Shown here: piece after piece, positions 31,263-46,289 of the stretch | Layout of the letters: every line of letters begins with the position of its first letter | Position numbering within the stretch: the first letter of the stretch is position 1 | Origin: Chloroflexi bacterium ADurb.Bin325 | GTDB lineage: Bacteria; Chloroflexota; Anaerolineae; CG2-30-64-16 | Assembly (NCBI GenBank): GCA_002068935.1 | Contig: MWBF01000003.1 | Span: forward strand, 1 to 46,400 | DNA length: 46,400 bases | Direction: 5' to 3' | The notes under the pieces: generated by a model | What the model was told of the DNA's origin: nothing | The model's input: only the letters and a program-made list of their open reading frames with translations | The model's database searches: none | Position numbers and translations under genes: made by a program

Positions 31263-31396
31263 GAGGTCGGCCGCGCCGCCGAGTTGCTCTGGCCGGTCTC
31301 CGACCGAGCCAGGGGCACGGTCAGAGACCGGCCCCAGCTCCCTCTCCTGAAGGCTCATCTTCAAGAGAGGGGGCTGGGGGGCGAGGTCGGCCGCGC
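31263..31396. mobile_element. Small composite hairpin insertion at the 3' end of zwf
   Basis: The 14-base sequence GAGGTCGGCCGCGC occurs at 31263-31276 and 31383-31396 as a direct repeat, bracketing 106 bases. The insert consists of an R2 hairpin copy (31286-31338) and a degenerate relative of the hairpin at 722-802 (31333-31381). Removing the insert and one repeat joins the zwf frame to TCT-TGA, giving a stop right after Ser. This is what a target duplication would leave. It has no transposase, so it would be a non-autonomous (MITE-like) element. Confidence 0.65.
31286..31338. repeat. R2 hairpin repeat, copy A
   Basis: It shares the exact 15-base core GCTCTGGCCGGTCTC with copies at 36843 and 42754, plus the matching arm GAGACCGG-CCCCAGC. 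The outer stem present in copies B and C is missing. It lies within the insertion at the end of zwf. Confidence 0.8.
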
Positions 31397-36775: not shown

Positions 36776-36829
36776 GATCTCACCCTGTTACATCTCATCA
36801 TAGATCGAAGCGTCCTCCGACCGTAAAAT

Positions 36830-36909
36830 CTATCCGAAGATTGCTCTGGCCGGTCTCTGACCGAGCCAGGGACACGGTCGGAGACCGGTCCCAGCGGGTT
36901 TTCGGATAG
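36830..36909. repeat. R2 hairpin repeat, copy B
   Basis: Eighty bases fold as one hairpin. The outer stem CTATCCGAA / TTCGGATAG closes it; an inner stem pairs CCGGTCTC with GAGACCGG, and CTGG/CCAG-type pairs join them. It lies between the regulator gene and GH15. Confidence 0.82.
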
Positions 36910-37044
36910 GCTCGTAGTCGCGCCCCTCCGAAAATGGCCGCCCCTTCGACTGCGTCCGCACTGCGTGCGGCCTCCGCTCAGGATGCTCCGCGTCTTTTGG
37001 GGCGACATCGCTCAAGCGCGGCCAGGCACGCGTCGGTCTGCCGC

Positions 37045-42705: not shown

Positions 42706-42741
42706 GGGGCCGCGCCGGGCGACGCCGCCCGGCATGAGAAC

Positions 42742-42817
42742 CTGTCCGAGATTCGCTCTGGCCGGTCTCCGACCGTGCCAGGAGAATCAGAGACCGGCTC
42801 CAGCGCTTTTCGGACAG
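42742..42817. repeat. R2 hairpin repeat, copy C
   Basis: The same core and fold as copy B. The outer stem is CTGTCCGAg / tTCGGACAG: relative to copy B, an A-T pair is replaced by G-C on both sides, a compensatory change that keeps the stem. Confidence 0.82.
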
Positions 42818-42828
42818 ACTGCTGAACC

Positions 42829-42910
42829 AGACGGCCGGACAAGGGCGTCCGGCCGAGGGCAGGACAGCTCCGCACGGCCGATGTTGGCCGTGCGGAGCCA
42901 TTTAAGCGTC
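42829..42910 (+). repeat. R3 double-hairpin repeat, copy 1
   Basis: Two hairpins: CGGCCGGAC / GTCCGGCCG, then GCTCCGCACGGCC (42867-42879) pairing perfectly with 42886-42898. Ends in CATTTAAGCG. It is closely matched by 46114-46195. It lies 3' of a secreted-protein gene and may terminate its transcript. Confidence 0.88.
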
Positions 42911-42974
42911 GTGGGGCCGGGCTAAGTGTTGCCCCGACACCGTCAGGGCGGGACAACTCTTCTTCTAAAAGTGT

Positions 42975-46000: not shown

Positions 46001-46110
46001 TGGACGCGAACCAGGACGGGGCGATGCGCAACGGCCTGTTGCTGGGCGCCGCGGCCGCGGCGCTGGCGGCCCTGGGCGTCGGTTTCGCCCGACGACGGCG
46101 CTCGGCATGA
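43045..46110 (+). CDS. Subtilisin-family (S8) serine protease with C-terminal anchor
   Basis: This 1021-residue exported protease has a signal peptide (about 1-43) and an I9-like propeptide region (about 45-155). The S8 catalytic domain (about 165-510) carries the full triad: Asp205 (NVDTGV), His255 (GHGTHT) and Ser429 (GTSMASP), with oxyanion Asn354 (SAGN). Two carboxypeptidase-regulatory-like beta domains follow (about 508-665), then beta modules, a DUF11-like repeat (about 865-975) and a C-terminal hydrophobic segment with a RRRR tail (about 996-1021) that looks like a surface-sorting or membrane anchor. GAGGAG precedes the ATG at 43045; an upstream ATG at 42994 lies within the promoter. 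R3 repeats border the gene on both sides. Confidence 0.94.
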   Translation: MFHRTVPHSWLRALSLIVVAAFVFGLTGAPVVPSDISRPAIAHAEKIDRTVVAALETAPNEKVAVFAVLTEQADLSAASAIEDWDARGWAVYNALTDVAERTQPAVMATLQQFNNRSQAIEIKSFWIVNLVSLRGDRATIEALAALPQVKQIIPHMKLELPEPVEMSSTDQSPDAIEWGITKIGAPLVWSTYGVTGAGAVAANVDTGVQYNHPALVNQYRGNLGGGVFDHNYNWYNPAPNATCPNPNVPCDDNGHGTHTMGTEIGYDGGANQIGVAPGAKWIAAYGCCPDNEALLEAQQWMLAPTDLAGDNPDPTMRPHVLNQSWGGPGGSLIFDDVIASLRASGIFPSFSAGNYGAAGATGCGRLGSPGDNPSAFNVGATTSSDAIASFSSRGPNPFTGATGPEVSAPGNGVRSSYPTNAYASASGTSMASPHVAGAVALLISLEPKLAGQIEQIEELLRKTATPLTSTQTCGGVPGSQIPNNVFGWGRIDVKAAADMIYQAGVIQGTVTVGGVPTAGVTVSYTRLGKTLTTTTDANGFYKVLAGAGLWNMSATIFGQSVTAAGVGVMQNTVTTRNFAIPAIAVHTVSGVVSDAISSVGVPAMLLIADQPLLAPVWASATGAYSMSVPAGTWNLVVSHPGYDTATRSITVSGDMTVDIQLTPRGNYACLDNTQPGGPTYNWIDATDGTAYSLADDGNTPNITLPGTFTYFGADYTSVRVNANGFIFFGTTTYDVTHMILPFEGRPNNDAMAYGDDLNPEDGTQGKVYVKTIGNTLVAQWHQVEHWASGFPETFQIILDTDTDTITYQYHTVSWPDFTTVGLENATGTVGQLYSYQNSANLVSGRAVRFTPATGVGVNWGCDHALAVTIADDMDPVPQGNTYTYRINWNVLGFGGAPDAQLTATVPGNTSFVAASGGITPVGGVLTWNLGSQRPGMQDGSAWFTVKANSGPLATTTATISDGSGKSASNQETTTIEAPSAVGLAGLDANQDGAMRNGLLLGAAAAALAALGVGFARRRRSA

Positions 46111-46113
46111 GCA

Positions 46114-46195
46114 AGACGGCCGGATAAGCAGGTCCGGCCGCGAGCAGGACAGCTCCGCACGGCCAGCGCTGGCCGTGCGGAGCCGTTTAAGCGCC
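46114..46195 (+). repeat. R3 double-hairpin repeat, copy 2
   Basis: It begins four bases after the protease stop. The second hairpin is a perfect 32-base palindrome (46152-46183) whose loop has become fully complementary (CCAGCGCTGG centre). The first hairpin is CGGCCGGA / TCCGGCCG. Ends in CGTTTAAGCG. Likely acts as a 3' end structure for the protease message. Confidence 0.88.
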
Positions 46196-46289
46196 CTGCG
46201 ACCGGTGGAGTTTCGCGAGCTGGCCGCCTGCGCAGAAACGTTTTTGAAACGCTTCCTGTAGTTCAATTGCCGCGAACCTGTACGCATCG

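Follow-up and report, generated by a model that had tools for sequence, protein, structure and literature searches.

A REP/RAYT system of Anaerolineae without the GTAG tag, whose REPINs are probably dispersed inside IS5-type MITE ends

The window analyzed here comprises the first 46,400 nucleotides of contig MWBF01000003.1 of Chloroflexi bacterium ADurb.Bin325, and three of its intergenic regions carry a copy of a palindromic repeat family, R2. The exact 15-base core that the preliminary description had found in all three copies, GCTCTGGCCGGTCTC, does begin at positions 31286, 36843 and 42755. Copy A lies next to a G6PD gene, copy B is flanked by a GH15/glucodextranase gene and a BTAD/AAA regulator gene, and copy C is flanked by a CBM96 protein gene and a subtilase gene. 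Across the 3.96-Mb draft genome (all genomes compared in this study are drafts), the core was matched exactly 204 times, 93 times forward and 111 times in reverse, and the reversed-pattern control gave no match in the whole genome. In 1.36 Mb of this genome, 13 of 140 clusters of R2 units fell within the genes predicted by a crude gene finder, versus 79% of random positions.

The three copies differ in how much of a two-layered structure they retain. Copy A (31286–31338, plus strand) is an inverted REP doublet of REPIN-like form without IS5-type ends, and consists of a unit D (31286–31312, plus strand) and a unit U (about 31313–31338, minus strand), both with 0 mismatches to the unit pattern. 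Copy B (36826–36913, plus strand) is a complete 88-bp element bounded by 3-bp direct repeats, GTA, at 36823–36825 and 36914–36916. Its left terminal inverted repeat, AAATCTATCCGAAGATT (36826–36842, plus strand), has the end motif of autonomous IS5 elements in relatives, and is followed by a unit D (36843–36869, plus strand, 0 mismatches), an inverted unit U (36871–36895, minus strand, 2 mismatches) and the right terminal inverted repeat (36896–36913, minus strand). Copy C (42738–42822, plus strand) is a diverged element of about 85 bp with the same plan of IS5-type ends around a REP doublet, bounded by TGA at 42735–42737 and 42823–42825; its unit D (42755–42781, plus strand) has 0 mismatches, and its unit U (42782–42804, minus strand), which is shortened and diverged, was missed by the search at 4 mismatches and was read from the sequence. 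The elements previously placed at 36830–36909 and 42742–42817 are real, and their full lengths are greater. It had also been proposed that copies B and C each fold into one long hairpin, which agrees with the predicted RNA folding energies of −52.7 kcal/mol for copy B (z = −7.1) and −46.2 kcal/mol for copy C (z = −5.7), with dinucleotide shuffles as the reference. The hairpin of copy A, in which the outer stem is absent, has z = −3.3 against such shuffles.

The outer stems of copies B and C had been described as CTATCC/GGATAG and CTGTCC/GGACAG, and the paired differences had been taken as a sign of selection on a folded molecule. The letters were correctly quoted, while the difference amounts to one pair only, A-T in copy B and G-C in copy C. 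Among 38 distinct copies, this change of pair occurs in one sequence, copy C itself, and one-sided changes at the same pair were observed in three others. Over the long hairpin of these 38 copies, the covariation score was 0.064 versus 0.080 in shuffles, and standard pairs made up 91.1% versus 91.8% in shuffles, so that the further copies show no excess covariation and compensatory selection on the outer stem was rejected by pair counting. Linked differences do exist at end columns 2/92 and 4/90, where pairing is not preserved and where they mark subfamilies, as expected. The outer stem would be symmetric because it consists of two copies of one transposon end, an origin that does not need selection on the fold. 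As a caution for similar cases, symmetric changes in transposon end repeats are no evidence for selection on folded RNA.

Within this outer stem, the R2 interior is composed of two bulged hairpins in inverted orientation, unit D (GCT-CTGGC-CGGTC-TCC-GACCG-A-GCCAG) and unit U (GCT-GGGGC-CGGTC-TCT-GACCG-T-GCCCC). Among the dispersed copies, inverted pairs of D and U (REPINs) predominate. Inverted “+-” doublets accounted for 68 of 148 clusters, and in 54 of them the pattern matches are separated by an identical 3-nt gap; a further 68 were matches to a single unit, which include chance matches, as the unit search at 4 mismatches counts some of these (the reversed control gave 28). Both IS5-type ends were present on 43 of the 68 “+-” doublets, and R2 units without such ends occur in this genome both alone and as doublets. 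In addition, tandem arrays of R2 units are found in other Chloroflexota, in records labelled Anaerolineae, Caldilineales and Thermoflexales, and three records of viral contigs contain isolated units. On one contig labelled Pirellulaceae, an exact unit is embedded in repeats some 36 bp long (L236 5158–5182), for which transfer, mis-binning or a coding repeat are all possible.

The inner stem behaves quite differently from the outer one in such comparisons, as it covaries strongly across RAYT-linked REPs. In 30 distinct units, collected from the window family and from sequences flanking RAYT genes, six of the ten stem pairs change on both sides, and the covariation score of 0.362 (versus 0.102) was reached by none of 500 shuffles, although kinship inflates the covariation counts. 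Paired cells amounted to 99.3%, versus 85.9% in shuffles and 28–39% in slid controls, the 99.3% being raised by the choice of the units by eye as hairpins of the R2 plan. The triplet before the stem is G(C/T)T in these 30 units, and the canonical foot tetranucleotide GTAG (or GTGG) is absent.

The preliminary description had compared R2 with REP-like elements and recommended a search for a REP-associated Y1 transposase, and such a gene is indeed present in the same genome, surrounded by R2 units. A profile built from two R2-flanked RAYT proteins matched it, in a scan of 396 genomes of the class, at G000:C84:1210-1755 (E = 1.9e-85); the PF01797 search had failed to detect this gene, and the R2-flanked profile alone revealed it. 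The C84 protein scores 83.4 bits against NCBIfam NF047646 (cut-off 80) and contains the motifs THLH (HUH) and GYLHDNP (Y). Three U-type units lie upstream of the gene and three inverted D-type units downstream. Similarly, R2-type units flank a RAYT gene on both sides in 3 of the 11 other R2-carrying Chloroflexota genomes that were searched with the RAYT model, and the two proteins of the profile come from these loci. All nine R2-flanked RAYTs fall within one clade of 14 rows (support 98/97), and the remaining RAYT loci carry two single R2 units only. Diverged hairpins of the same plan (e.g., GCTGTGGCAGGTCTCCAGACCTAGCCAC, GCTGCGGCCGGCCTCCGGCCGTGCCGC and GTTCTCGCCGGTGTCCTCACCGCGCGAG) were observed both at RAYTs of this clade that the motif search had missed and at neighbours outside it. 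Judged from these sequence relationships, the C84 RAYT is likely the partner enzyme of R2. The only Pfam Y1 match of the genome, L031 (G000:C174), was considered as a partner and rejected, as its flanks carry a different REP of the GTAG type, GGCGCTGAAGCGCCTACTACRAAC, with 54 matches in 1.36 Mb and a RAYT of its own. The genome therefore holds at least two REP/RAYT pairs. In a relative, G004, 89 exact cores were counted and the R2-RAYT profile found no match; therefore, the R2 copies of that genome appear to persist or spread by means other than an R2-RAYT.

The likeness to MITEs, which had been put forward as well, was also borne out, since in copies B and C the outer stem is made up of IS5-family terminal inverted repeats (GAACCTATCCGAAAA). 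Most R2 doublets in this genome are enclosed by IS5-family ends and form a MITE of about 88 bp. The end motif, GAAYCTATCCGAAAA, occurs in pairs 88 bp apart in 33 cases. The three bases before and after the element are identical in 27 of 50 elements, compared with a mean of 8.8 and a maximum of 19 in 5000 shuffles, and the target consensus is C-TNA-G, with TNA duplicated. Two nested insertions were found for which empty copies of the target repeats are present: in one, the empty site GTGACTTCAGTCGCC became GTGACTTCA-[88 bp]-TCAGTCGCC, and in the other, the empty site GCGCTTACTAC became GCGCTTA-[88 bp]-TTACTAC. Autonomous elements of 910–945 bp with the same ends exist in relatives from the same family (L141, flanked by TTA/TTA, L140 and L137), and at L151 only the right end is seen. 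Matches to DUF4096 and DDE_Tnp_1 were obtained for the proteins of L141 and L151, and L141 also matches NF033580 (IS5 family). Elements with DDE_Tnp_4 were checked as a source of the ends and do not have them. A search for an intact IS5 transposase in the genome itself, whose assembly is 93.9% complete, revealed a broken fragment only.

Elements of about 131–140 bp (L048, L058, L062, L079, L085, L090, L106 and L108) have the same ends around another long palindrome, CCTCACCCCC..CCCTCTCC..GGAGAGGGGG..GGTGAGG, as if the IS5-type shell took interchangeable palindromic interiors. A palindrome similar to this alternative interior abuts copy A at 31339–31385.

Taken together, we consider it highly probable that R2 is a REP/RAYT system of Anaerolineae that does without GTAG, and that its REPINs are dispersed inside IS5-type MITE ends. 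According to this model, the RAYT, a Y1 HUH transposase, would nick and rejoin single-stranded REP hairpins, and its action would give rise to doublets and arrays. REPINs would then become enclosed by IS5 inverted repeats, after which an IS5-type DDE transposase acting in trans may move the enclosed REPINs, inserting them at C-TNA-G with duplication of TNA; the active IS5 copy would by now be lost from this genome or unassembled. The R2 palindrome pair may thus have two possible ways to spread. We infer the cleavage and mobility due to RAYT, the movement driven by IS5 and any cellular role of R2; the arrangement of REPs and RAYT, the common ends, the duplicated TNA, the empty sites of the nested insertions and the covariation of the REP stem are observed.

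Each of the two layers could also be thought to account for R2 by itself. If R2 were simply an IS5 MITE, the inner palindrome would be nothing more than the inside of the MITE, found beside RAYT genes by coincidence; the ends on 43 of the 68 doublets, the TNA duplications and the nested insertions are all in keeping with that, whereas units that lack the ends and occur singly or tandemly arrayed in many Chloroflexota, and units on both sides of the RAYT genes of one clade are not, and we regard this explanation as improbable. The converse proposal, that the outer stem belongs to the REPIN and nothing derives from IS5, would fit the REP/RAYT arrangement and the continuation of the same hairpin by the outer stem. 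It is already contradicted by the 910–945-bp IS5 elements with the same ends, and the 3-bp TNA duplications, the unrelated palindrome enclosed by these ends and the doublets that lack them also speak against it, which makes it the least probable of the alternatives.

A structured RNA or terminator selected at many 3′ ends was considered as well, given the strong hairpins and the intergenic bias of the clusters. However, an Rfam search of the window detected a single tRNA and left the copies without a match, the long hairpin shows no covariation, an upstream stop was not clearly preferred over a downstream start (39 of 70), and the duplications and nested insertions demonstrate mobility. This explanation is accordingly very unlikely, and a secondary effect of R2 on transcripts is possible.

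In comparison with known REP/RAYT systems (REPtrons, TnpA_REP) and REPINs (PMC3116915, PMC6006769, PMC8266576), R2 shares the short, imperfect, bulged hairpin, the high copy number, the intergenic location and the inverted doublets, and, as in REPtrons, units flank the gene of a single-domain Y1 HUH protein. A GTAG or CGTC tag is described for REPs in PMC3733652. R2 differs from typical systems in having neither GTAG/GTGG nor CGTC, with G(C/T)T before the stem instead, in the THxH motif of its RAYT, in its Chloroflexota host and in the many doublets within DDE-transposon ends. Atypical REPs without GT[AG]G have been described for subclass 2.6 and class 3 (PMC6006769), and the missing tag therefore excludes canonical GTAG REPs only. 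By motifs, R2 resembles TnpA_REP subclass 2.6, equivalent to RAYT group 5 (PMC6006769), in its atypical REPs, a WQ motif, NP after the tyrosine and an HUH-Y spacing of about 80; this subclass, which is mostly from Bacteroidetes (PMC6006769), has NH[LIV]H and YIH[QN]NP, whereas the R2-RAYTs have THLH/THIH and YLHDNP. The GTAG REP/RAYT pair of the same genome has the same arrangement around its gene, but its REP is GTAGTGGGCGCTTCAGCGCC and its RAYT is on a distant branch. Like IS5-family MITEs, the R2 elements are short and geneless, with inverted ends as in the autonomous IS5 of relatives and a 3-bp TNA duplication; unlike them, their interior is a REP doublet instead of a deleted IS, and the ends also enclose another palindrome. 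In the literature searched, no paper on REPINs inside IS5 ends or on RAYTs in Anaerolineae was found, and among the matches listed for part of the core there were only unrelated papers.

These results identify in Chloroflexota a REP family that lacks the customary GTAG tag, along with the RAYT that matches it. The compensated stem changes among the REPs flanking the RAYT clade make the rules of hairpin recognition testable with matched and mismatched pairs, and REPINs inside DDE-transposon ends offer a plausible route for the RAYT-free spread of REPs. Beyond this, we tentatively suggest, without much confidence, that a single miniature element serves two unrelated transposases, RAYT addressing the inner hairpins and the IS5 DDE enzyme the outer ends, and that self-folding palindromes would be preferred as the shell interior because their folding brings both ends close to each other; at least two different palindromes have been seen inside this shell. 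REPs might generally use this route to spread where their own RAYT does not reach.

Of 132 clusters, 22 are bordered by direct repeats of 14 bp or longer, compared with 9 of 3000 random sites; several of these repeats represent tandem duplications or belong to other repeats. REP doublets with direct repeats of about 20–32 bp were observed at L096 8626–8678, L083 13068–13120, L113 4055–4108 and L072 18573–18625, and in two of these cases a transposon end is missing. At L096, L083 and L113 the repeats consist of about 20–30 bp of otherwise unremarkable sequence, for which template switching at the foot of the hairpin could be a source. Longer elements of 104–125 bp with another hairpin, e.g., GTGCTCAACTGCGTTGAGCCTACC, in place of one REP hairpin tip or of both occur at L091 2142–2266, L104 7965–8069, L108 12110–12230 and L083 6456–6559. 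In relatives, R2 units also lie within other inverted flanks, GGGTGTGTTTCAAATG and GGGCTTGTCAAAG (L187, L230 and L190, L219, L033, L035), possibly further transposon shells.

Other repeats accompany R2 in this genome. Degenerate tandem AATCCTGTC motifs were found beside several R2 units (L043 2778, L045 5752, L056 7854–7955 and L086 15776). Another repeat family, GGCCGTGACTTCAGTCGCC, is present in the window at 202 (plus strand) and 29631 (minus-strand coordinate), with 22 matches in 1.36 Mb, and is the target of one nested MITE insertion. In addition, directly after the CBM96 and subtilase genes, window positions 42823–42920 and 46108–46205 are 83% identical and contain strong double hairpins, GCTCCGCACGGCC..GGCCGTGCGGAGC.
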